A stretch of DNA of 64,000 nucleotides from an uncultured Prevotellaceae bacterium (GTDB lineage: Bacteria; Bacteroidota; Bacteroidia; Bacteroidales; Bacteroidaceae), in NCBI GenBank assembly GCA_902767775.1, contig CACXIP010000006.1, positions 62,001 to 126,000 of the forward strand, given 5' to 3'. Shown here piece after piece: positions 573 through 11,924 of this stretch. The notes beneath the pieces are model-generated. The model was not told the DNA's origin, ran no database searches, and worked only from the letters and a program-made list of their open reading frames with translations. Position 1 is the stretch's first letter, and the number at the start of each line of letters is the position of its first letter. Both the position numbers and the translations under genes were made by a program.

Positions 573-3287
573 TCAGTTTTTGATGATTTTGAAACTGTGT
601 GTGTGGTCTTCAATGTCGGTCACCCGCATCACATAGGTCTCCTGTGCCCTCAATGTGGTGACTTTCTTGCCGTCAAGGGTGAAGAACTCACGGCTCTTCA
701 CTTGTATGCTGCTTTCATGCCATGCAGGGGAGATGGCTGTGGCGGCATCGGCAGTGATGGCTATGCCAAACCGCTGTGTGAAAGTTGTCTTGCCGTCGTC
801 GACAGTGACATTTACATAGGCGATACCTTGGCTGTCGGGTTGTATGGCATGTATGGTCAGTGTGCTGCCGCTGATGCTGGGAGCAATCATGCCGTATCCC
901 TGTTCATCGAGGCTGAAGGTAGGAGTTGCTGATTTGCCGTTTTGACCATAGAAACCTGCAAAGTGGGGCTTCAGGTCGATGGTGCCGCTGGAGTTGGGCT
1001 GAATCATAAGATAGGGATGAGACATAAACTCAAGATAGTCTTCCAACAGTGTGTAGCCATCATGGTCGGGGTCACCATTGTTGTCTGCGGTGGATGGGTC
1101 ACTGCCAGTTAGTTGCTCCCACCAGTTGGGCATGCCGTCCTGGTCGGTGTCCCAATTGGAGGGTCGTGTCTCTTCGGGATACACTTCCCATCCTTTGCCT
1201 TCAGCATGTTCGGTGATGTCTGCCTCGGTGTCGATTTCACCTTTGATACCGGATTTGGAACCGACATATGTATAGGTACCATCAATGGTCTCACGTATGT
1301 TGCGCACATGCTGTTCGTCGCGCATGGGCATGATGGCACCGCTGTAACTGGTCACCACCTTCAGGGCATCTTGGGCGGTGTGGATGACGGCATACGAGGG
1401 GAAGAAAGGCTCGTTGACGATGGTCTCATATTTGGGTCCGGGGTCGCCGTTGGAGAGCACCACATTGTAGGTCACGTTCTTGGCGTCCTGTGTTAGTGTG
1501 TGGTTCTTGTTCTCCCGGATGTTGCCGTGGACGTATGCCCGCCACGTGCTTTCCGGATGTCCTACATTTTCGTAGTTTTGTGTGAAGAGCACGGTATGGC
1601 GGGTGTCTGGTCCCATTTTGTAGTAGTTGTTCACGAAATTCACCTCATGGCAGTTGCCGTCTGTGGTGCGTCTGTTCCAATTGTACACGACGTTGTTGAA
1701 GATGTCCATTTGGCCGATAGCACGGTTCTCACCATCCATGCCACCACCCAAGCTCCAGTTCCTGCCCTCGCAGTTGACCAGCAGGTTGTGATGCCATGAG
1801 CCAATCTTTCCGTCGATGGTGGCTGCATAACCATGGTTGGTGCCGTCGGCATAGTTCTTATGACCGGCGATGCCAAGTGCCTCACTGATGATGGAGTATT
1901 GGAAGGAGATGTTTTTCGCACCTCTTCCGCTGACGGTCTCATCGGTGCCCCAGGCTGCCGTACAGTGGTCGACAATGGCATGGTCGGCACCGCTCATGCC
2001 CATGGCATTGCCTGTGTTTTGCCCATAAACGCCTAATCCGCGTTTAAATCGCATGAAGCGGCAGATGACGTCGGAGCCGATGTTGATGTTGGAGGCTTTC
2101 AGGCAGATGCCCTTTCCTGGCGCCGTCTGTCCGGCGATGGTGGCATAGGGTTTGACAAACTGGGCACCGAAATCCATCTCGATGATGCCGCTCACATCAA
2201 ACACGATGGTGCGTGGTCCTTCCATGTCAACAAGCCCATAGAGCAATGAACCTGGTTGATGGTCGTTGTTGAGGTTGGTGACATGATAGACCACTCCGCC
2301 GCGGCCACCTTGTGCGAAACGCCCATAACCTTCGGCTTCGGGGAATGCCAGGTGACGTGGACGGAAACTCCATATGATTCCCTTGGTGATGTTGCCGTCG
2401 GCAGTCTCCTCATCTACCCGCCAATAGTAGGTGTTGAGGTTGTAGAGGTCGGTGGCGGTATAGGTGGTGTCTGTTCCTTCATAAAGTGCTGAGGTGGAGT
2501 TGGCCACGGCTGAGGAGTCGGTGCCCAAATATAAATAATGTTTGATGACATCTTTGCTGGCTGGCGACCATTTGAGCGCGAACGTGCCGTTGTCGGCATC
2601 CATATGGAAATCTTTGTCGCTTGGCACTGGCAGTTTGGCTTGCAGTTTGGAGTCTGTCACATCAATCATCAACCCGTTGAGCAGCGGTGTCTTGTCCTTG
2701 ACCCTTTTGGTGTCGGCATCAGCGGGAGCCTCATCCTCGTTTGTGGAGAAAGTGAGCACCACCTCCTCATTGCTGTTGCTGACAGTGAAGAGGGTCATCA
2801 GCACAGTGGCATCTTGTGCAGAACTGACTTGTTCGGTACGGGGCACAGATTGATGCACGACCTTGCCATTGAGACTCACGGTGATGGGCCATGCGGCGGT
2901 GTTGGCAGGGTCTTGCCATCCATTGTGATAGGTCTGGATGCTGTGCTGACCTGGGGCCAGTCCCTTGATAATCAGGTCGAACGAACCGCACTCGTTGGGG
3001 TCGAAGTTCATGCCGTCGCCCGTTAGGCGGCAGTTGTTCTCTTTTTTCTGTACGAACGTCTTGCTCCAACCGGAGCGCATGGTGTGCCCCGAGCGGATGG
3101 TGAAAGTGACACCGTCTATCTCAAGAACGCACTCTTTGACGTCTTTGTTGAACTTCCATGGCGTGAAACCAGGCTCCAGCACCTCATCATTGTTCCGACT
3201 GGGTTCGTTGATATCAATTTTGTAAGTTTTCTGTGCATGCATGCCGATGGCGGCGGCAAGAGCCAGAATGGTCAGTAATGGCCTCAT
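573..3287 (-). CDS. Secreted pectate lyase (PL1-like) with fibronectin type III domain
   Basis: The 904-residue product should cleave polygalacturonate by beta-elimination outside the cytoplasm. The chosen start (MRPLLTILALAAAIGMHAQ) gives a clean signal peptide; a longer reading from 3344 would run through the promoter box at 3325-3332. Residues about 20-230 look like a beta-sandwich. Residues about 235-325 form a fibronectin III unit (TYYWRVDEETADGN). The lyase part starts near residue 319 (EAEGYGRFAQGGRGG) and shows the parallel beta-helix signatures TIAGQTAPGKGICLK, VICRFMRFKRG and AIVDHCTAAWGTDE. A calcium-loop segment DTDQDGMPNWWEQLTGSDP follows. The last 35 residues (FFTLDGKKV...) resemble the short C-terminal sorting-like tails of Prevotella secreted proteins. 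The gene is probably co-regulated with the downstream lipoprotein. Assignment to PL1 is from motif memory, not a search. Confidence 0.88.
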   Translation of the reverse strand: MRPLLTILALAAAIGMHAQKTYKIDINEPSRNNDEVLEPGFTPWKFNKDVKECVLEIDGVTFTIRSGHTMRSGWSKTFVQKKENNCRLTGDGMNFDPNECGSFDLIIKGLAPGQHSIQTYHNGWQDPANTAAWPITVSLNGKVVHQSVPRTEQVSSAQDATVLMTLFTVSNSNEEVVLTFSTNEDEAPADADTKRVKDKTPLLNGLMIDVTDSKLQAKLPVPSDKDFHMDADNGTFALKWSPASKDVIKHYLYLGTDSSAVANSTSALYEGTDTTYTATDLYNLNTYYWRVDEETADGNITKGIIWSFRPRHLAFPEAEGYGRFAQGGRGGVVYHVTNLNNDHQPGSLLYGLVDMEGPRTIVFDVSGIIEMDFGAQFVKPYATIAGQTAPGKGICLKASNINIGSDVICRFMRFKRGLGVYGQNTGNAMGMSGADHAIVDHCTAAWGTDETVSGRGAKNISFQYSIISEALGIAGHKNYADGTNHGYAATIDGKIGSWHHNLLVNCEGRNWSLGGGMDGENRAIGQMDIFNNVVYNWNRRTTDGNCHEVNFVNNYYKMGPDTRHTVLFTQNYENVGHPESTWRAYVHGNIRENKNHTLTQDAKNVTYNVVLSNGDPGPKYETIVNEPFFPSYAVIHTAQDALKVVTSYSGAIMPMRDEQHVRNIRETIDGTYTYVGSKSGIKGEIDTEADITEHAEGKGWEVYPEETRPSNWDTDQDGMPNWWEQLTGSDPSTADNNGDPDHDGYTLLEDYLEFMSHPYLMIQPNSSGTIDLKPHFAGFYGQNGKSATPTFSLDEQGYGMIAPSISGSTLTIHAIQPDSQGIAYVNVTVDDGKTTFTQRFGIAITADAATAISPAWHESSIQVKSREFFTLDGKKVTTLRAQETYVMRVTDIEDHTHSFKIIKN

Positions 3288-3324
3288 ATTTGCTTTAGTT
3301 GTTAGTTTTTTCGTCTTTTGCGGG

Positions 3325-3332
3325 CAAAGGTA
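3325..3332 (-). promoter_or_regulatory. -7 promoter box of the pectate lyase gene
   Basis: The minus strand reads TACCTTTG here, an exact TAnnTTTG match, 38 bases before the pectate lyase ATG. No TTTG box sits at the usual upstream spacing; that place is occupied by the inverted repeat at 3342-3377, which suggests the promoter needs an activator. Confidence 0.65.
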
Positions 3333-3341
3333 ATAAAAAAA

Positions 3342-3377
3342 CACCCATTTGAGGTGGATAAATATCTCAAATGGGTG
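3342..3377. promoter_or_regulatory. 12-bp perfect inverted repeat, likely operator upstream of pectate lyase
   Basis: CACCCATTTGAG (3342-3353) and CTCAAATGGGTG (3366-3377) are perfect inverse copies with a 12-base spacer, 24 bp centre to centre. The repeat ends 10 bases upstream of the pectate lyase -7 box, so it covers the -33 region and lies outside the expected transcript. A protein-binding operator is therefore more likely than an RNA hairpin. The remainder of 3378-3487 holds nothing that I recognise. Confidence 0.6.
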
Positions 3378-3487
3378 GAAAAAATGTTAGAGCCCCTATC
3401 TCATAAGATTCTTCTTGTCTTAATCAAGTATGGACAATTGCCTTAAAGTAGAAGAATAACCTCTTTGGATACTTGAATAGTAAATAT

Positions 3488-3518
3488 TTTGCCGTTTTTT
3501 TAAATTTTCGTACATTTG
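3488..3518 (+). promoter_or_regulatory. Promoter of the ECF sigma / anti-sigma / A2M operon
   Basis: TTTG at 3488-3491, then 19 bases, then TACATTTG at 3511-3518. This matches both Bacteroidota promoter boxes and their spacing. Transcription would start near 3525, leaving a leader of about 145 bases before the sigma factor ATG. The leader contains a 20-codon reading frame (3541-3603) that I do not regard as established. Confidence 0.65.
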
Positions 3519-3668
3519 TCCTCGACATGCATGACTTTTGATGAATTCTTTTCTCCCTACTGAATCCGAAGAACTGAATGATGAAACTGAAAAAAACAGG
3601 TAGAAAAAGAAAAAAGTATTGTTTCATGGTTGGTTTTTCACGATTCTATCCGTTATTATGATAAAACA

Positions 3669-4178
3669 ATGATAGACAACAGGCAATTCGAACAGTTGTT
3701 CAAGAGCAACTACGCGGCAATGATGCGAGTGGCACGCGGCATGCTTGGCGACGATGAGGAAAGCAAGGATGTCGTAAGCGACATCATGCTCCGCGTCGGC
3801 GATGGGCGCATCACCCTCCCGCCTGACAGCCAGCGCTATCTGCTCACTTGTGTGAGAAATCGATGCCTTGACGTCATACAACACAAGAAGACAACAGAGA
3901 AAATAATGCGCCTTTACCCGTTGGTCACACAACCGACACTCAACATCGCCAATGAGCAACAGGTGTATGATGAGATTCTCCATGTGGTGGAGACACAACT
4001 GACCCCACAGACCCGTAAAGTCTTCGAATTGCGCCATGACCGACACCTCTCTTACCAAGAGATAGCCGACACTTTGGATATCAGCAAGGCGGCTGTCTAC
4101 AAGCACCTGGCGAAAGCCATCAACCTACTAAAAGCACATTTCAACGATGAGTCTCCCACCACTCAAGTCACCATTTAG
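3669..4178 (+). CDS. ECF-family RNA polymerase sigma factor
   Basis: This 169-residue protein has the two-domain build of extracytoplasmic-function sigma factors. The sigma-2 helix bundle is at about residues 8-70 (FEQLFKSNYAAMMRVARGML, then DVVSDIMLRV). The sigma-4 helix-turn-helix is at about 112-165 (LTPQTRKVFELRHDRHLSYQ, then EIADTLDISKAAVYKHLAKA). ATG 3669 is preferred over the in-frame start at 3630 because homologues begin just before the sigma-2 helix. The gene is followed after 11 bases by a membrane anti-sigma gene, which is the usual arrangement for sigma factors held at the inner membrane until an outer-membrane signal arrives. The regulon is not visible, but its own operon is an obvious candidate target. 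Confidence 0.92.
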   Translation: MIDNRQFEQLFKSNYAAMMRVARGMLGDDEESKDVVSDIMLRVGDGRITLPPDSQRYLLTCVRNRCLDVIQHKKTTEKIMRLYPLVTQPTLNIANEQQVYDEILHVVETQLTPQTRKVFELRHDRHLSYQEIADTLDISKAAVYKHLAKAINLLKAHFNDESPTTQVTI

Positions 4179-4189
4179 TCAACAACACC

Positions 4190-4834
4190 ATGGACAAGAT
4201 TGCACAACTGCTCGACATCATAGAGCATCCTGAAAAATACAGCGACGAAATGCTGGAAAAGTTGTTTTGCGATGAACAACTCAGCCAATACTATGAAGTA
4301 ATGGCTTTGGCGTCCAGTGCCTACCGTGCACGAAGGGCGGAGGAGCATGAGCCAGATGATGTGGATGAGGCATGGAAGGAGTTTCAATCGAGAAACACAG
4401 TCAGTACCGGCCATCATCAGTGGTGGAGAAGTGCTGCCATCATCATCGGCATCATGGTATCGGGATTGGCCATCGCTGCCTTATGGCCGTTCTGGCATAC
4501 GGAACCCAAGACGGGTTCAATAGAGACTACACAACAGGCACAGCCAATTCCCGCCAACTCCGCCACACCCAAAGAAAGCCTGCCACACACCGAATCACGA
4601 GTCCAAGCCACAGCAAAGAGTGTCGTTTTTGACAATGTATCACTCGAGCAAATCATCCGGGAGACAGCCGTTTTTTATGGAATGAGTTATTCTTTCGAGC
4701 GAGAGGAACCCAGACGGCTGCGGCTTCATGTGAAATGGGACCAGCAGCAACCGATGGACTCTTTCGTCAGCCGCCTCAACCGGTTTGAGAAATTCAACAT
4801 CATCATCAACGACAACACCATCCTCATCAAATGA
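4190..4834 (+). CDS. Short FecR-like anti-sigma protein with DUF4974-type C-terminus
   Basis: The 214-residue product has a cytoplasmic N-terminal part of about 78 residues, one membrane segment (about 80-101, AAIIIGIMVSGLAIAALWPF) and a periplasmic tail. Residues about 145-214 (VSLEQIIRETAVFYGMSYSF to the end) look like the DUF4974/STN-like fold found at the C-terminus of FecR proteins. The central FecR domain of the usual 300-350-residue anti-sigma proteins is missing. Its likely role is to hold the upstream sigma factor at the inner membrane and to receive a signal through the periplasmic domain. Its stop codon overlaps the ATG of the next gene (ATGA at 4831-4834), which suggests translational coupling and a shared function. 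The anti-sigma role is inferred from layout and topology. Confidence 0.8.
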   Translation: MDKIAQLLDIIEHPEKYSDEMLEKLFCDEQLSQYYEVMALASSAYRARRAEEHEPDDVDEAWKEFQSRNTVSTGHHQWWRSAAIIIGIMVSGLAIAALWPFWHTEPKTGSIETTQQAQPIPANSATPKESLPHTESRVQATAKSVVFDNVSLEQIIRETAVFYGMSYSFEREEPRRLRLHVKWDQQQPMDSFVSRLNRFEKFNIIINDNTILIK

Positions 4835-7800
4835 CACGACGCATCCATCTTATCGCTTTGCTCATCGCTCTGATGACACAAGGACTGACAGCCCAGACCA
4901 TCAACCAACAATTCAAGGACTGTTCTCTCTCTGATGCTTTGCTCGCCATTGATGATGCCTGCGACAGCATCACCGTCAATTTCGTGTATGACGACTTGGA
5001 GGATTTCCGTGTGACAACAGATGTCACCAATGCCACTGTTCAGGATGCCGTCAGACAGGTCTGCGGTTTCTATCCCATGCGGATTATCACCTTTGGCAAT
5101 GATATTTTTGTGGAATGTACGCAACGCGACTCCCTCCGTCTCATCGGAAAGGTGGTTGACCAGAAAGGTTTGCCTCTGAAATATGCCAATGTCGCACTCC
5201 TCTCACCCGTGGACAGCAGTCAGGTCAACCATGGTGTGGCCAACGATGATGGCTACGTGGTGATACCGTGTCCGATACAGGAAGTCATCCTCAGAGTCAC
5301 CCACGTGGGCTATAGGACTTATGAAAGACGCTGCAAAGTCACCGACATGGGTGAAATCATTCTCAGCCCCGACACCAAGCAACTTAAAGGTGTCAATGTG
5401 TCGGCCACACCGCCACCCAATCATGTCATCCGAAGGAGTTATGCCTCTTTGTGGAAAGAGGCCAACCGTCTCGCCAAAACCGACCTTCCCCAAAAGGAAA
5501 TGGAGGTGATGCGCCTCATCGCCATGAAAGCAAGAGCGGAGATGAATTATGGTCAACTGCTGACTGCAGAACTGATGTACGGTTCCTTGCAGCGAACAGT
5601 CTCTCCCGACTCGCTCGACAGTTTCATCAGCCGCCTCGTTGCAGAAGAGCAATCGGCTGCTACTCATGCACCCATGTTGGCCGCCACCTATCAGACCATA
5701 CTCAGTAAAATCATTGAAGAAAACGACCCTGGCAGTGATGAGGCAGAGAAATACCGTCAGAAGGCACTCTCGAATCCCGATGTACTGTCACAGACGGATT
5801 CCCATATCTTACAACCTTTCCTCAATTTAGGAGACGACAGTGATATCTTCGGACACGATATGCTGTCTGTTATCGGCTTTGAAACAGGCAATGAGGCCGT
5901 GCTCCGCGATTACTACAAACAAAAAGGAAGCCGAAAGGCACAGATGGTGCTGGATTACAGGTTGTTAACCAATGATTATCATACCAAATACGGACATGTG
6001 ATGGTGGACCGGCGCACGCAGTATTTGGCAAGTCTCGACTCACTCATCCAACGATATTCTGACCTTCCTGAATGCTGCGAACTGGTTATCGAACGTTACA
6101 ATGTGATGAGAGATATGCCAGATTACTCAGCCGAGCAATTGAATGCTTTCCTTGACAACAACATATCAAAATGGAGCAATTGGCGAAATGTAGTGCAACT
6201 CCAAAACTTCAAACGCCAACTCACCCAACCACAGCTTGCTATTGAAACTCATGACCGTCAAATTCCATCACAGCACACCTATGTTGTAAAACTCAAGGAT
6301 ATACGCAATATCAAACAAGTGAATGTCAAGTTGACACGGCTTGATATCGACCAGCAAAATCGTATGCTGCATTCATCATATATGGATGAAGAGAGACTGA
6401 ATGACCTGCGGAAGTACGCCAATGGGAAAAATGAAGTCATCTGCAGCAAACAATTGGCTTCTCATCCCGAATATGAGATATTTAATGACAGTATTCAACT
6501 TCCGGCACTTGGCGCAGGAATCTATCTGATGCAATGGTCTACAGACAAAAAAGAAGCCAATACCATCTATGACATTCTCCATGTGAGTGACATCACCCTG
6601 CTCTCGGAGGCCTTGCCTGACGAGATGATACGCTTTGCCGTTGTCAACACTTCCACGGGCAAGCCTATTCCCCACGCACGTCTCTCACTCGGCGACAAGG
6701 CGAACAAGATAGTGCGTACCGACAGCCATGGAGAGGTTGTCTGCAGCAATAAGTATTCCCGTATCTTTGCGTTTACCGATGACGACCATTTCTCGCTCCC
6801 GCTCAATTGGACATTGCATCATTATGCAGAAGAGACATCGAAGCAGAAACTCATCCACATATTTACCGACAGAAGAATCTACCGTCCCGGGCAACAGGTT
6901 CAGGCTGCCATATCAGTTGTTCTCAACGATTGCAACCATTATCAGGAAATGCTTCAGGGCGAGCAATTGCGGGTGAAATTGATGGACCCTGCTTCCATCA
7001 CGGTGGCTGACACGATTGTCACCACAGATGAATTCGGTACAGCCACACTGCTGTTTCCCCTACACAAGAGCAAAAGTGGTTTCTATAATATTATCGCCAG
7101 TCCAGTAACAGATGCTGCGGATGGCATGAACACCTCTTGCTTTTTTGGTGTGGAAGAATACAAATTGCCCACTTTTGATTTGCAATTCCAACCTCTGGCA
7201 CGCAATCAATTGGAGGCCGATACCCTCAGGTTGCCTTTGTATGTCCGTACTTTTTCTGGCGGTTTCGTCAATCGTGCCCGAGTGGCATATAAAGTATCAT
7301 TGTTTTCCTCTGTAGCATCACCATCTTCTTTCTTCGAGGAGGTGTCGATGTATAGGGCGGCTTTGATAGCCTCCATAGCCGACGATACCACCTATACCGC
7401 TGCCGACGGCACAGCCTATCTGTGTATTCCGCTTCAAACACCCAACGTTGAAAGAGATGGCAGGAAAGTGGATCAGTTTATCTTCAGCATCAACGCTATA
7501 GTCACCGACATGGCAGGTGAGACACACGAAATATCTCAAAACATCAAGTACACCACCCGTCAGCGGACGCTCTCGCTTCTGATGTCCTCTCCCATCATGA
7601 AGGTTGGCCAACCGCTTCGGTTGAAATGGCAATTGAAAGACCATATCGGACTCGACATTGATGAAGATGTCACTTATTATATTGACAATCCCACAAATGT
7701 ATTTCACGCAGAGTCCAACAAACGTGTGGAAATGCCTGAATGTCAAGCCCTAAAACAAGCTGGCAAACATCGCATATTTGCCATATGCGACGGCGACACG

Positions 7801-10800
7801 GTGAGCGGAACTTTTTTAGTTCATGACTTCAATGCCAAGCGGTTGGGCACTCATATGTCATCTTTCCTGGCTGTGAGTGACGGACGGTTCCCCGCCGACG
7901 GCAGTGCGGTGAAACTGCAATTCGGCACATCACTTCAAGATGTGCATTTGGTCTATAGCATCATCGCTGGCAAACAAGTCATTGAGCAAGGAGTCATGCG
8001 GCTCAACGATGAGATTCATACCCGTACGTTGACCTACCGACCGGAATATGGTCCTGGGGTGTTTGTTGCAACAGCTTTCATCAAAGACGGCAAAGTCTAT
8101 CAGGAACAGGCAAACATCAGCATGCCATTGCCTGACAAGCGGCTTCAGATGAAATGGACGACCTTCCGCGACAGACTCACACCTGGACAAAAGGAGGAAT
8201 GGCGACTGCAAGTGACACACCCCGATGGTTCACCTGCCGCTGCCAATGTGCTCGCTACGCTCTATGATGCCTCGCTCGACCGAATCTCCAACCACGCACT
8301 GGGGTTCTCTCCGTTCAATCAATATCGCATTCCGGGCACACAATGGAGAAGCCCATATACCCTTACTAAAACAACACTCATCAGCGAAACACTACAACTT
8401 GCTAATTCCCAGCCTTTGTCGTTCAGCTATTTCGACCCTCTGTTGTCCATACTTAGAGGCAACAACCAGACCATTCAAGAGAAGATGGACATCTCGAGAT
8501 TGTTGCCTAAAAAGGTATCTCACAAAGGTCGGTCGGGCTATGCTTGCGGCATCGTTGTGGATGAGATGGGCGACCCTTTCATTGGCGCAATTGTATCCAT
8601 CAAAAACAGTGAGAAAACGGTTCTGACCAACATTGACGGAGAATTTGAGATAGCAATGCGTGACCCTCAATCTCTGTTGGTGAGTTTTGTAGGCTACAAA
8701 TCTGCCACAGTGAAAGCATTTCCTGGCAGTTATCTCAACATTGTCCTTAATCCTTCAACGGTTCTGAAAGAAGTAGTGGTAGGTGCAGGAAAAAGGAGAG
8801 AAGGTGGGGCATTGAGTGTACCACTCAGGGCAGTTCGACAAGTGGAACAGTTACAACCAGCAGACACGAAACCAGACACGAATCAGGCATTGCAGGGAAG
8901 GATTGCTGGTCTTGACATCGTCTACAACTCATCTTCATTTAGTGAAAACAGTATTCGCATCCGAGGAACATCGCCCATGGACGATGTAGCAGACATTTCT
9001 AATAACCGCGGTATACAACAACCGGTGGTGGTGCGTGAGAACTTCAGCGAGACGGCGTTTTTCATGCCAACGCTCCGCACCGGCACCGATGGTACTGCCA
9101 CCATGGCATTTACCCTTCCCGAGAGCGTCACTACATGGCGCCTCTTAACCCTTGCCTACGACAAAGAGGCCAACTATGCACAGCACGACACTACCGTGGT
9201 GGCTCAGAAAGAGGTGATGGTGCAACCCAACTTGCCTCGCTTCGTGCGTAGCGGCGACCAGTCGGTCATCGCAGCCAGCGTCACCAGTCTCAGTGAGCAA
9301 AACCACAGTGGCGTGGCACTGCTTCAAATGCTTGACCCATCGACCGATACAGTGGTGTGGTCTTCGTCCATGCCTTTTACCGTGGAGGGCGGTTCCTCTA
9401 CCAAAGTAGACTTCCACTATCAGCCCACTGACCAATATCCGTTGTTGATTTGTAGGGTGAGTGTCAGCGGCGACTCTTTCAGCGATGGCGAACAGCACTA
9501 CCTGCCCGTGCTCCCCAACAAGGAACTTGTGCTTACCACGCATCCCATCACCATGCATGGTGCATCTCGTATAGACATCCCGCTCAGTGGTGCCACATCT
9601 AAAGACTCCACACGGGTAACCATAGAGTTTACCAACCATCCTGCCTGGTTGATTGTAGGTGCTGTCCCCACCCTTGCCACCCGTCCCGATGACGATGCGC
9701 TTTCACAGGCATCTGCCCTCTATGTCAATACCATCGCCGGTCAAATGATGAACTCGCAACCCGAACTGAGAGAGGTGATGGAGCAATGGCGTGACGAAGA
9801 TGGCAAAGAGGGGAATGTGGAGAGTGCCTTGGCAAGAAATCAGGAGTTGCGCAATGTGCTGCTGGAGGAGACACCTTGGGCAGCAGAGGCGACCAACGAG
9901 GCGGCCCAGAAACGCCATATGATGAAATACTTTGATGTGCCCACGTTGAAGATGCGTATCAACAACGCCATTAAGCAGTTGGGCGCCCTGCAAGGTCCTG
10001 ATGGAGGGTGGTCTTGGTGCAAGGGTATGGACAGTTCGCCTTACATCACCACCACGGTGATGGAAATCCTCTCACGTCTCGTCTCCCTCGCACAGATAGA
10101 TAAAGCAACGAGCCAACTCATCGACCGTGGCATGGCCTACCTTGACAAACTGACAGCAAAGAAGGTGAAGGAAATGAAACGGCAGGAAGCACAGAACAAG
10201 AAACGGGAAAAAGGCGAGCGAATCATTATCGAACCCGATGAACAGATGCTGCATTACCTCTATATCACTTCACTCTTGGATAAAGACCATAAAGAGCAAA
10301 TGCGGGCAGAGCGCAAATACCTGCTCTCGTATCTCTGCGACCACAGGTTGGACTTATCCATTTATGGCAAGGCGGCTTGCGCTGTTGTTTTGGCAAGAGA
10401 GGGCCAGAAAACGAAAGCAAGCGAATACTTGAAAAGCCTACTTGACTATGCTGTGAAAACCGACGAGATGGGAATGTATTTCGACATACCTAAAGCACAT
10501 TATTCATGGCGCAACTACCGCATCCCCACCGTCGTCATGGCGATGGAGGCAGTGAGGCTTCTTGCACCCAAGGACACCACTTCGGTGAGGATGATGCAAC
10601 GCTGGCTCTTGCAGGAGAAGCGTACGCAACTGTGGGACACATCGGTCAACAGCATCGATGCCATCCATGCCTTCCTCTGCACTGGAGGGATAGGATTTGA
10701 AAAGAAGCAGGATGCTGCTACCTTCCAACTGGACGGACATCCACTCAGCGTACCTCAGTCAACGGCCCCACTGGGATATGTGAAAACTATGCTGACCGAC

Positions 10801-11277
10801 AGCCATGCACAGAAACTGACCATCGACAAATCATCGGAAGGCACCTCATGGGGAGCCGTCTACATACAGTCTGTGGAACCGTCGGAGAAGGTGACTGACG
10901 CATCCTCCGGATTCACTGTGAAACGTGAGGTGGTGTCGGAAGGTGACGCATTGAAAGTAGGTGACAAAATCAAGGTTCGCATCACCATCCGTGCCGACCG
11001 CGACTACGACTTTGTACAGGTGGTGGACAAGAGGGCTTCTTGCTTGGAACCCGTCCGCCAACTCAGTGAATATCACTGGGGTTATTATAGCCAAAAGAAG
11101 GATAGTTCTACCCTCTATTTCATTCAGCACATGAACAAGGGCGTTCATGTGTTGGAAACGGAATATTATGTTGACAGGGAAGGTGATTATGGCATGGGTA
11201 CATGCACTGTGCAGTGTGCCTATGCGCCAGAATTCACCGCTCGTACAAAAGGGGGAATCATCAGGAGCAGCAAATAG
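4831..11277 (+). CDS. Giant alpha-2-macroglobulin-like protein with STN, carboxypeptidase-regulatory and plug-like modules
   Basis: The 2148-residue exported protein starts with a signal peptide (MTRRIHLIALLIALMTQGLTAQ is split between residues 1-22). Domains in order: STN at about 22-98; carboxypeptidase-regulatory-like domain at about 104-190; a helical stretch; MG2-type macroglobulin domain near 674 (FTDRRIYRPGQQVQA); further beta-sandwiches; a second regulatory-like domain at about 1237-1310 (GIVVDEMGDPFIGAIVSIKN); a TonB-plug-like remnant at about 1340-1380 (NQALQGRIAGLDIVYN, SIRIRG); the A2M core near 1408 (TAFFMPTLRTGTDGTATMAF); and an alpha-alpha barrel from about 1690 (GPDGGWSW). No thioester motif (CxEQ) is seen, so covalent protease trapping is unlikely. 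The STN and plug pieces belong to SusC/FecA receptors that signal to anti-sigma proteins. Coupling to the sigma/anti-sigma genes suggests that this protein is the sensor or the product of that pathway (inference). Confidence 0.85.
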   Translation: MTRRIHLIALLIALMTQGLTAQTINQQFKDCSLSDALLAIDDACDSITVNFVYDDLEDFRVTTDVTNATVQDAVRQVCGFYPMRIITFGNDIFVECTQRDSLRLIGKVVDQKGLPLKYANVALLSPVDSSQVNHGVANDDGYVVIPCPIQEVILRVTHVGYRTYERRCKVTDMGEIILSPDTKQLKGVNVSATPPPNHVIRRSYASLWKEANRLAKTDLPQKEMEVMRLIAMKARAEMNYGQLLTAELMYGSLQRTVSPDSLDSFISRLVAEEQSAATHAPMLAATYQTILSKIIEENDPGSDEAEKYRQKALSNPDVLSQTDSHILQPFLNLGDDSDIFGHDMLSVIGFETGNEAVLRDYYKQKGSRKAQMVLDYRLLTNDYHTKYGHVMVDRRTQYLASLDSLIQRYSDLPECCELVIERYNVMRDMPDYSAEQLNAFLDNNISKWSNWRNVVQLQNFKRQLTQPQLAIETHDRQIPSQHTYVVKLKDIRNIKQVNVKLTRLDIDQQNRMLHSSYMDEERLNDLRKYANGKNEVICSKQLASHPEYEIFNDSIQLPALGAGIYLMQWSTDKKEANTIYDILHVSDITLLSEALPDEMIRFAVVNTSTGKPIPHARLSLGDKANKIVRTDSHGEVVCSNKYSRIFAFTDDDHFSLPLNWTLHHYAEETSKQKLIHIFTDRRIYRPGQQVQAAISVVLNDCNHYQEMLQGEQLRVKLMDPASITVADTIVTTDEFGTATLLFPLHKSKSGFYNIIASPVTDAADGMNTSCFFGVEEYKLPTFDLQFQPLARNQLEADTLRLPLYVRTFSGGFVNRARVAYKVSLFSSVASPSSFFEEVSMYRAALIASIADDTTYTAADGTAYLCIPLQTPNVERDGRKVDQFIFSINAIVTDMAGETHEISQNIKYTTRQRTLSLLMSSPIMKVGQPLRLKWQLKDHIGLDIDEDVTYYIDNPTNVFHAESNKRVEMPECQALKQAGKHRIFAICDGDTVSGTFLVHDFNAKRLGTHMSSFLAVSDGRFPADGSAVKLQFGTSLQDVHLVYSIIAGKQVIEQGVMRLNDEIHTRTLTYRPEYGPGVFVATAFIKDGKVYQEQANISMPLPDKRLQMKWTTFRDRLTPGQKEEWRLQVTHPDGSPAAANVLATLYDASLDRISNHALGFSPFNQYRIPGTQWRSPYTLTKTTLISETLQLANSQPLSFSYFDPLLSILRGNNQTIQEKMDISRLLPKKVSHKGRSGYACGIVVDEMGDPFIGAIVSIKNSEKTVLTNIDGEFEIAMRDPQSLLVSFVGYKSATVKAFPGSYLNIVLNPSTVLKEVVVGAGKRREGGALSVPLRAVRQVEQLQPADTKPDTNQALQGRIAGLDIVYNSSSFSENSIRIRGTSPMDDVADISNNRGIQQPVVVRENFSETAFFMPTLRTGTDGTATMAFTLPESVTTWRLLTLAYDKEANYAQHDTTVVAQKEVMVQPNLPRFVRSGDQSVIAASVTSLSEQNHSGVALLQMLDPSTDTVVWSSSMPFTVEGGSSTKVDFHYQPTDQYPLLICRVSVSGDSFSDGEQHYLPVLPNKELVLTTHPITMHGASRIDIPLSGATSKDSTRVTIEFTNHPAWLIVGAVPTLATRPDDDALSQASALYVNTIAGQMMNSQPELREVMEQWRDEDGKEGNVESALARNQELRNVLLEETPWAAEATNEAAQKRHMMKYFDVPTLKMRINNAIKQLGALQGPDGGWSWCKGMDSSPYITTTVMEILSRLVSLAQIDKATSQLIDRGMAYLDKLTAKKVKEMKRQEAQNKKREKGERIIIEPDEQMLHYLYITSLLDKDHKEQMRAERKYLLSYLCDHRLDLSIYGKAACAVVLAREGQKTKASEYLKSLLDYAVKTDEMGMYFDIPKAHYSWRNYRIPTVVMAMEAVRLLAPKDTTSVRMMQRWLLQEKRTQLWDTSVNSIDAIHAFLCTGGIGFEKKQDAATFQLDGHPLSVPQSTAPLGYVKTMLTDSHAQKLTIDKSSEGTSWGAVYIQSVEPSEKVTDASSGFTVKREVVSEGDALKVGDKIKVRITIRADRDYDFVQVVDKRASCLEPVRQLSEYHWGYYSQKKDSSTLYFIQHMNKGVHVLETEYYVDREGDYGMGTCTVQCAYAPEFTARTKGGIIRSSK

Positions 11278-11292
11278 AATCATCTGTCAATC

Positions 11293-11358
11293 AAAAAGAG
11301 GATTTTTGTGTCAAAATAGACGAAAAAGGTCTGTTTATTCACAAAATCCTCTTTTTTT
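11293..11358 (+). terminator. Intrinsic terminator of the sigma / anti-sigma / A2M operon
   Basis: GAGGATTTTTGTG and CACAAAATCCTC pair with one bulged base across a loop of about 29 bases, flanked by A and T runs, and end in seven T. It lies 16 bases after the A2M stop codon. Confidence 0.75.
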
Positions 11359-11389
11359 ATTGCATAATCAGATTTTTACACTAACTTTG
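11359..11389 (+). promoter_or_regulatory. Promoter of the PH-domain / M48 / NfeD / SPFH gene group
   Basis: ATTG at 11359-11362 (one mismatch to TTTG), 19 bases, then TAACTTTG at 11382-11389. It follows directly on the terminator and leaves a leader of about 43 bases. Confidence 0.6.
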
Positions 11390-11438
11390 CTTACGCGAAA
11401 TGTCAATCAAATACTGAAACCGAAAAACAATAACAACA

Positions 11439-11924
11439 ATGAGTCTATCCAAAAACAACATGATGGAGGGCGAGAACGTCATCTGTGAAGCCAAATTTCA
11501 TTACATGATTTATTGGTTGCCCATCCTGCTGACCCTGCTGGCGGTGGCATTGCCATTTATACCCATCGGCGAGAACACACTGAAATACCGGTTGATTTTC
11601 AGCGGCATATTCCTCGTGCTGGCTTTCCTTTGGTACATCGTCATCAACAACGGTAAAAAATTCGTTCTTACCAACAAGCGCATCATACTCAAAACGGGCA
11701 TCATCATGCGCAATTCAAAAGAACTTATGCTGCGCAAATGTGAGAGCATTAACGTGCAGCAGTCCATATTAGGACGTATCCTCAACTATGGCGACGTCAT
11801 TGTCTCAACAGGTGAGGAGAAGGATGTTTTCAAATACATCTGGGGACCCATGTCCTTCAGTACTAAAATCAATGAGCAGATTGACAAAATCAGTACATCT
11901 ACAAATATTGAGGCTAACAACTAA
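11439..11924 (+). CDS. Membrane protein with bacterial PH domain (DUF304/bPH2-like)
   Basis: The 161-residue protein has two membrane segments at about residues 22-42 (MIYWLPILLTLLAVALPFI) and 51-70, followed by a cytoplasmic beta-rich domain with the bPH2 signature (FVLTNKRIILKTGIIMRNSK, ELMLRKCESINVQQSILGRI, LNYGDVIVSTG). Such proteins are small inner-membrane proteins of unclear biochemical role. ATG 11439 is used; an in-frame ATG at 11460 is possible. Only 13 bases separate it from the next gene, a lipoprotein protease, and NfeD and SPFH genes follow, so the group looks like an envelope quality-control cluster. The family call is solid; the role is unknown. Confidence 0.85.
   Translation: MSLSKNNMMEGENVICEAKFHYMIYWLPILLTLLAVALPFIPIGENTLKYRLIFSGIFLVLAFLWYIVINNGKKFVLTNKRIILKTGIIMRNSKELMLRKCESINVQQSILGRILNYGDVIVSTGEEKDVFKYIWGPMSFSTKINEQIDKISTSTNIEANN

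Follow-up and report, generated by a model that had tools for sequence, protein, structure and literature searches.

The window analysed here is a 64,000-nucleotide stretch of the genome of an uncultured Prevotellaceae bacterium (assembly GCA_902767775.1, contig CACXIP010000006.1, positions 62,001 to 126,000), a genome of 4.64 Mb on 73 contigs. On the forward strand, positions 3340-11500 of the window contain three closely ordered genes, encoding an extracytoplasmic function (ECF) sigma factor, a 214-aa anti-sigma protein, and a 2148-aa exported alpha-2-macroglobulin (A2M). An ATGA overlap (4834/4831) joins the anti-sigma gene (4190..4834) to the A2M gene (4831..11277). The original prediction for this locus had described the same gene order, with a reduced anti-sigma protein and an ATGA-joined exported A2M, and Pfam, NCBIfam, and the positions of the open reading frames (ORFs) all agree with it.

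The sigma protein contains the Pfam domains Sigma70_r2 and Sigma70_r4_2, and its top NCBIfam match is TIGR02985 (106 bits, below the cut-off of 126.4). The ORF list starts the gene at TTG 3630 (182 aa). Since this codon sits in a conserved promoter-like motif (3628..3656, discussed below) and ATG 3669 fits the N-termini of relatives, we placed the start at ATG 3669, giving a predicted protein of 169 aa (3669..4178). The anti-sigma protein comprises a cytoplasmic part, a single hydrophobic, presumably membrane-spanning segment (about residues 78-102, by eye), a linker, and a FecR_C tail (PF16344, residues 145-213, E 3.5e-6), which is the sole periplasmic domain recognised by Pfam. The FecR domain (PF04773) found no match in this protein, nor in the whole source genome at E 0.001, and matched 4 of 14 control genomes. 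All five FecR_C matches of the source genome lie within short open frames (209-257 aa). As in FecIR-type pairs, the ECF sigma gene adjoins a membrane anti-sigma gene, and the anti-sigma protein ends in a FecR_C/STN-like domain.

The A2M contains, in order, the domains MG2 (6853..7113, PF01835, E 2.5e-11), A2M_BRD (7909..8250, PF07703, E 1.1e-6), A2M (MG7; 9052..9303, PF00207, E 7.7e-17), and bMG10 (10933..11232, PF17973, E 1.3e-22), the series of a bacterial A2M, together with two CarbopepD_reg stretches (Pfam). Its N-terminus resembles a signal peptide without a lipobox cysteine (by eye). In an AlphaFold model of the N-terminal 411 aa (25 alignment rows, mean pLDDT 83.2), residues 22-99 (4894..5127) fold as beta-alpha-beta-beta-alpha-beta-beta with a pLDDT of ~82-94, which agrees with the two beta-alpha-beta repeats of STN domains described in a passage of PMC7186176. 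We therefore regard residues 22-99 as STN-like on the model, the assignment being weak by sequence. Residues 100-178 (5128..5364, limits from the alignment and the model) form a carboxypeptidase regulatory/N-terminal-extension (NTE)-like domain (CPD), to which the best Foldseek match of the model, the NTE of SusC BT3090 (9hfj, E 2.1e-5), was aligned. No barrel family of Pfam or NCBIfam matched the A2M, the best TIGR04056 stretch being confined to the N-terminal part of its model. Because no lipobox was seen and no barrel was found, the A2M is probably soluble in the periplasm, and the earlier idea of signalling at the surface is probably wrong. The CxEQ thioester motif was absent from all 12 complete STN-bearing A2Ms (STN-A2Ms), from the A2M paralogue of the source genome, and from 29 STN-less A2M loci of which the C-terminal part was read, so that these proteins are unlikely to trap covalently as ECAM does.

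The N-terminal module of the A2M is shared with outer-membrane (OM) proteins. Six other proteins of the source genome (open frames of 839-875 aa) match the A2M within residues 2-199 at 39-45% identity, and a seventh, weaker match covers residues 83-198; the STN-less A2M paralogue of the same genome (1911-aa open frame, contig C3) matches from residue 198 on. Pfam identified three of four such STN-CPD proteins as OMP_b-brl_3 barrels (L006, L008, and L078), and the fourth (L105, 504 aa) as CPD only. In L105 (positions 2425-3325, genome G770), sigma and anti-sigma form one 300-aa open frame before the 504-aa STN-CPD ORF, which may stem from a gene fusion or from a frameshift. A sigma/anti-sigma pair lies upstream in all nine STN-barrel loci found by a pattern scan (L133-L141; the sigma gene of L139 is lost at a contig end) and in 21 of 26 loci of a second STN-CPD barrel-type set. 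Sigma and anti-sigma share one open frame in L039 and L077, and no pair was found within 1.5 kb of L005, L007, L083, L088, and L090; L005 and L007 each come second in a tandem gene pair. Because the same STN-CPD sits on an OM barrel, after the same gene pair, in these sister operons, the A2M operon looks like an STN-CPD module whose barrel was exchanged for an A2M body. The A2M had been proposed to stand in for a SusC/TonB receptor. It does take the receptor's place, but SusC was not simply replaced, as TIGR04056 matches the A2M itself, and the exchanged receptor was most likely an OMP_b-brl_3 barrel.

In a sample of the family, 147 of 201 genomes had an A2M match at 1e-60; among the matches listed, only that of the source genome begins before residue 150. 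Two candidates were scored per genome, so STN-A2Ms could have been missed in this sample. Within the genus, where up to five candidates were scored, 11 of 398 genomes (source included) had a match through residues 10-349, and a phylum sample of 395 genomes gave no further match spanning these residues. The scan with two short patterns returned 24 loci, 15 STN-A2M (L118-L132) and nine STN-barrel, all of which belong to Prevotella or Prevotellaceae. Five of the 15 STN-A2M loci have rumen or omasum hosts, and the other ten bear RUG isolate names, which we take to denote rumen genomes. The system thus appears confined to one genus in the searches made. The STN-A2M set discussed below consists of the window and these 15 loci (n = 16); loci of the genus survey overlap with it, and L123, L127, L130, and L132 are interrupted by contig ends.

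The anti-sigma gene is directly upstream of the A2M gene at 12 of the 16 loci (~250 bases off in L126), and the sigma gene was also seen at 11 (lost at the contig end in L123). For comparison, 12 STN-less A2Ms of the genus were sampled with upstream DNA, and none had an adjacent pair; lone sigma-like ORFs lie ~2.5 kb (L106) and ~4.6 kb (L117) away from two of them. Conserved linkage of the three genes, the absence of which would have refuted the original prediction, holds within the genus, and in these searches the system was not spread across Bacteroidota. Tandem ORFs of ~233-275 aa with a CPD-like stretch were also observed upstream of the STN-less A2M genes in L113, L114, and L115.

In quick phylogenetic trees with SH-aLRT support and no bootstraps, the 12 complete STN-A2Ms formed one clade against 29 STN-less rows (support 100), and 11 A2M-type anti-sigmas formed one clade against 18 barrel-type sequences (support 98, with long branches meeting among the barrel-type rows). 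The subclades of the two trees match. The pair is missing at L120, L128, L129, and L131. L128 and L129 group beside L126, and L131 groups on the window side (88), which makes at least two losses of the pair probable. At L128 the contig extends only 4.2 kb upstream, where the opposite strand holds a weakly sigma-like ORF (E 6e-5). No close relative of the L126 anti-sigma was found in genomes G793, G642, and G663 (best 37%), where identities of ~30% cannot separate A2M-type from barrel-type.

The promoter-like motif before the sigma gene, GGTTGNTTTTT-N9-ATCCGTTAT, is proposed as the site that the ECF sigma of the operon itself recognises. A motif search found it with identical spacing in 12 loci, that is, in 11 of 11 operons with upstream DNA present and at the solo locus L120, with one deviation in L122 and two each in L126 and L132; the rows of the window, L118, and L119 are closely related. 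It was not found at L128, L129, and L131, and the window contains no second match at up to three mismatches (0.01 expected). Among 27 genomes searched at up to two mismatches, the operon site was recovered in all seven with a readable paired operon (in G829 at two mismatches), and no site was found in the 16 genomes without an STN-A2M match, nor in G793, G663, and G915 (operon cut). Three extra sites were found: in the source genome at C6:156526 (two mismatches, before a glycosidase-like ORF), on C185 of G642 (two mismatches, away from the A2M), and on C29 of G909 (one mismatch, before a DUF4139 gene). The motif is nearly private to the STN-A2M operon, which fits autoregulation of the operon by its own sigma factor. 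Several barrel operons carry a sister motif, which occurred without mismatch in three of seven genomes, each time at an STN-barrel operon; two of the three (G813 and G791) had been included because their loci showed the motif.

Two observations concern sites of this motif outside a paired operon. The gene behind the G909 site (L172:676-2550) encodes a DUF4140/DUF4139 protein in which a Ton-box-like LNEVAVVGYG comes after an internal CPD. The metagenome-assembled genome Tb.RUG.168 holds both L119, a paired STN-A2M, and L120, a solo gene of another subclade with the motif, which may reflect trans control or a mixed assembly.

The STN-like domain is the best-conserved segment of the A2M in deep comparisons between paired loci. 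Between the window and L121, identity is 65% in the STN and 46, 36, and 47% in body segments; between L121 and L126, it is 79% versus 49, 49, and 59%. The STN is not always highest in close pairs (L121-L120: 85% versus 87, 81, and 89%), and in comparisons with L131, which lacks the pair, it hardly exceeds the body (42-49% versus 33-47%). Tests of STN-versus-body relative rates on the L131 branch gave Fisher p values of 0.0024, 0.030, and 0.0016, uncorrected and not independent of one another. The STN motif [FY]YPMR was kept in all 13 loci with the pair or the promoter-like motif and lost in all three with neither, where it is replaced by NLPIR (L128), NLPVR (L129), and GCPVL (L131). FYPM was present in all 15 of the barrel STNs caught by a regular expression, out of 35. 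The operon linkage, the shared origin, the near-private motif, and the loss of YPM where pair and motif are gone support the predicted coupling of the A2M to the sigma pair.

The bait position of the A2M, between A2M_BRD and MG7, carries SusC sequence in the window protein. The SusC/RagA model TIGR04056 matches the A2M in two stretches (whole-protein E 7.5e-31), of which the best places residues 1240-1383 (8548..8979) on model positions 5-148, the N-terminal 144, with an incomplete plug. The segment consists of a CPD/NTE, a Ton-box-like LKEVVVGA, and a plug remnant, NQALQGRIAGLDI...IRIRG. We scored 42 baits with a plug profile built from 20 SusC-like genes of the source genome, using a threshold of 5 bits. 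The window bait scored 34.2 bits, and 22 of the 42 baits reached at least 5 bits, compared with 0 of 84 reversed or shuffled sequences and 0 of 42 body segments. These 22 included all 12 complete STN-A2Ms and 10 of 30 STN-less A2Ms; the other 20 STN-less baits, including that of the source-genome paralogue, stayed below the threshold. Insertions and deletions make the bait hypervariable: of window residues 1321-1380, 53 are missing from L118, whose full-length identity is 88%, and L126 retains a longer part of the plug. AlphaFold modelled the bait region poorly (pLDDT 58.8, ~25 in the stretch after the Ton-box-like part), and the fold matches of residues 905-1500 were complement and A2M entries (best E 1e-11) with TM-scores by query of 0.14-0.20, reflecting the poor model. 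SusC Ton-box and plug motifs were also seen in the bait positions of STN-less A2Ms (L022, L026, L035, L036, and L010). L036 had the top plug score (45.6 bits) and by eye resembles the source-genome SusCs L153 and L169. The bait may have been captured repeatedly from SusC genes.

We propose, with a probability of about 0.62, that the operon encodes a cell-surface signalling (CSS)-type module whose transducer is a soluble periplasmic A2M instead of an OM barrel. The mechanism joins signalling-domain protection in the Fox system with bait-cut rearrangement in ECAM. In passages of PMC11637429, before any signal arrives, the signalling domain of FoxA is bound to the anti-sigma FoxR, which it shields from proteolysis; the STN-like domain of FoxR alone interacts with the FoxA signalling domain in a two-hybrid assay, and cleavage of FoxA apparently leaves a form that lacks this signalling domain. 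In ECAM, a cut bait frees a disordered stretch and the protein rearranges (parts of PMC4498604). By analogy with FoxA/FoxR, the N-terminal STN of the A2M would dock on the STN-like FecR_C tail, keeping the anti-sigma intact and the sigma factor bound. Cutting of the bait, by a protease entering the periplasm or by damage there, would change the shape of the A2M and withdraw or alter the STN, upon which the anti-sigma would be degraded and the sigma factor freed. The freed sigma factor would then transcribe essentially its own operon from the upstream promoter-like motif and thereby supply more trap. In this framework, protease sensing by the A2M is plausible; like the originally suggested response to envelope stress, it is hypothetical.

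This arrangement can be compared with known systems. It resembles the FecA/FecR/FecI type (PupB/PupR, FoxA/FoxR/FoxI) in its ECF sigma factor, its membrane anti-sigma with a C-terminal STN-like domain, the predicted N-terminal STN-like domain of its transducer, and its apparent autoregulation, but that transducer would be a macroglobulin that has neither a barrel nor a transport function, and the anti-sigma lacks the FecR (juxta-membrane) domain. The STN-CPD-OMP_b-brl_3 operons of the same genus (L133-L141; source contigs C12, C15, and C48) share the gene order, the mini anti-sigma, a homologous STN-CPD (39-45% identity within the source genome), and in several cases a related motif; they differ in having an OM barrel where the window has a macroglobulin. 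Like E. coli ECAM and Salmonella SaA2M, the window protein has MG2, BRD, A2M, and MG10 in order with a bait position before MG7; unlike them, it has STN-CPD in front, SusC-derived CPD and plug in the bait, no CxEQ, no lipobox seen, and a sigma pair in the operon. Sequence matching the N-terminal 144 positions of the SusC/RagA model lies within the A2M, with an incomplete plug and no barrel family match. The Dma/Das dual membrane-spanning anti-sigmas and a Phocaeicola pair, the latter with envelope stress as the likely trigger, are likewise ECF/anti-sigma variants of Bacteroidota with a layout other than that of FecR, as described in parts of PMC13088901 and PMC9308784. Their anti-sigma itself reaches the OM, whereas here the signal would pass through a distinct protein in the periplasm.

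Several results weigh against an A2M transducer. The original prediction of an N-terminal STN domain is supported by predicted topology and context, but PF07660 reached only E 0.26 (11.6 bits versus a cut-off of 28.4) on the window STN and matched 5 of 26 homologous STN-like domains (best E 0.001). The same profile gave no match in the whole source genome at E 0.001. No STN structure was among the best 50 Foldseek matches listed for the N-terminal model, and a PDB profile search with the STN alignment returned nothing up to E 10. The candidate relation between STN and FecR_C from hhalign (12% probability, 26 columns) is not usable as support. A PDB profile search with the FecR_C alignment gave only chance matches (best E 0.17), which were rejected. 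In PupR, both subdomains were required for binding of the N-terminal signalling domain in vitro (a passage of PMC7186176), and one of them is absent here. The YPM losses amount to only two independent events, L128 and L129 being sisters. The relative-rate results for L129 (p 0.017) and especially L128 (p 0.095, 0.18, and 1.0) depend on the outgroup and are weak, and CPD rates shift in the same direction as those of the STN, so that the signal may concern the whole module. The information content of the motif (1.61 bits per column versus 0.44 and 0.43 in the flanks) comes from rows picked by the pattern and serves as a contrast only, with no test. The reversed motif pattern matched five times in the 27 genomes at up to two mismatches, and two-mismatch sites therefore lie within background.

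The retention of the STN in all four STN-A2Ms without an adjacent pair also bears on an alternative in which the A2M is a mere effector within a stress operon under sigma control, the pair responds to some other cue, and STN-CPD is a fusion leftover or an assembly aid. Autoregulated operons with non-sensing cargo are common, and we regard this explanation as rather unlikely, though the least unlikely of the alternatives. The STN is, however, the most conserved segment in deep paired comparisons, [FY]YPMR is lost only where both pair and motif are missing, and the sister receptors share the same module and gene pair. A more elaborate version of the A2M transducer is a self-reporting trap, in which the SusC N-terminus serves as decoy bait, a protease or toxin attacking SusC-like sequences springs it, the STN alerts the anti-sigma, and the near-private promoter makes more trap; this version remains speculative and is rather unlikely.

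The same bait allows for an A2M that senses TonB/SusC traffic rather than proteases, its NTE, Ton-box-like stretch, and plug remnant binding TonB or a SusC partner and passing tension or binding to the STN. The TIGR04056 match of residues 1240-1383 and the plug scores of the 12 complete STN-A2Ms (against 0 of 84 controls) agree with this, as does the order of CPD then EVVVxG, which is that of the NTE and Ton box (DEVVVTG) of Bt1763 in a passage of PMC7782687. We nevertheless consider it improbable, as the residues that follow the Ton-box-like part are hypervariable, partly deleted in L118, and poorly modelled (pLDDT ~25), and thus more bait-like. That an ordinary sigma pair lies beside an ordinary A2M by chance, a reading which the restriction to one genus (11 of 398 genomes) and the single early-starting match listed in the family sample might favour, is very improbable given 11 loci from different assemblies, in which linkage, motif, and congruent subclades hold down to ~40% A2M identity.

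The surroundings of the operon include a divergent gene on the reverse strand (573-3344) for a 923-aa protein that adjoins it; the protein appears to be of a pectate-lyase-like secreted type by eye only, and Pfam gave a weak fn3 match only. Upstream of the ECF-like motif, positions 3487-3518 (TTTTG...TACATTTG) resemble what we take to be the Bacteroidota housekeeping promoter consensus.

The roles of bacterial macroglobulins have been little tested. Searches of openly licensed PMC papers listed none that couples an A2M with a sigma/anti-sigma pair, and none on a SusC-derived bait. The SusC-derived bait raises the question of why a trap displays the N-terminus of a transporter. The natural receptor swap, the candidate promoter, and YPM as a named, putative interface stretch make the system directly testable. 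Our analysis suggests that a protease-trap-like A2M itself reports to the genome: a macroglobulin is apparently wired to gene control through a CSS receptor module, which would be signalling without transport.

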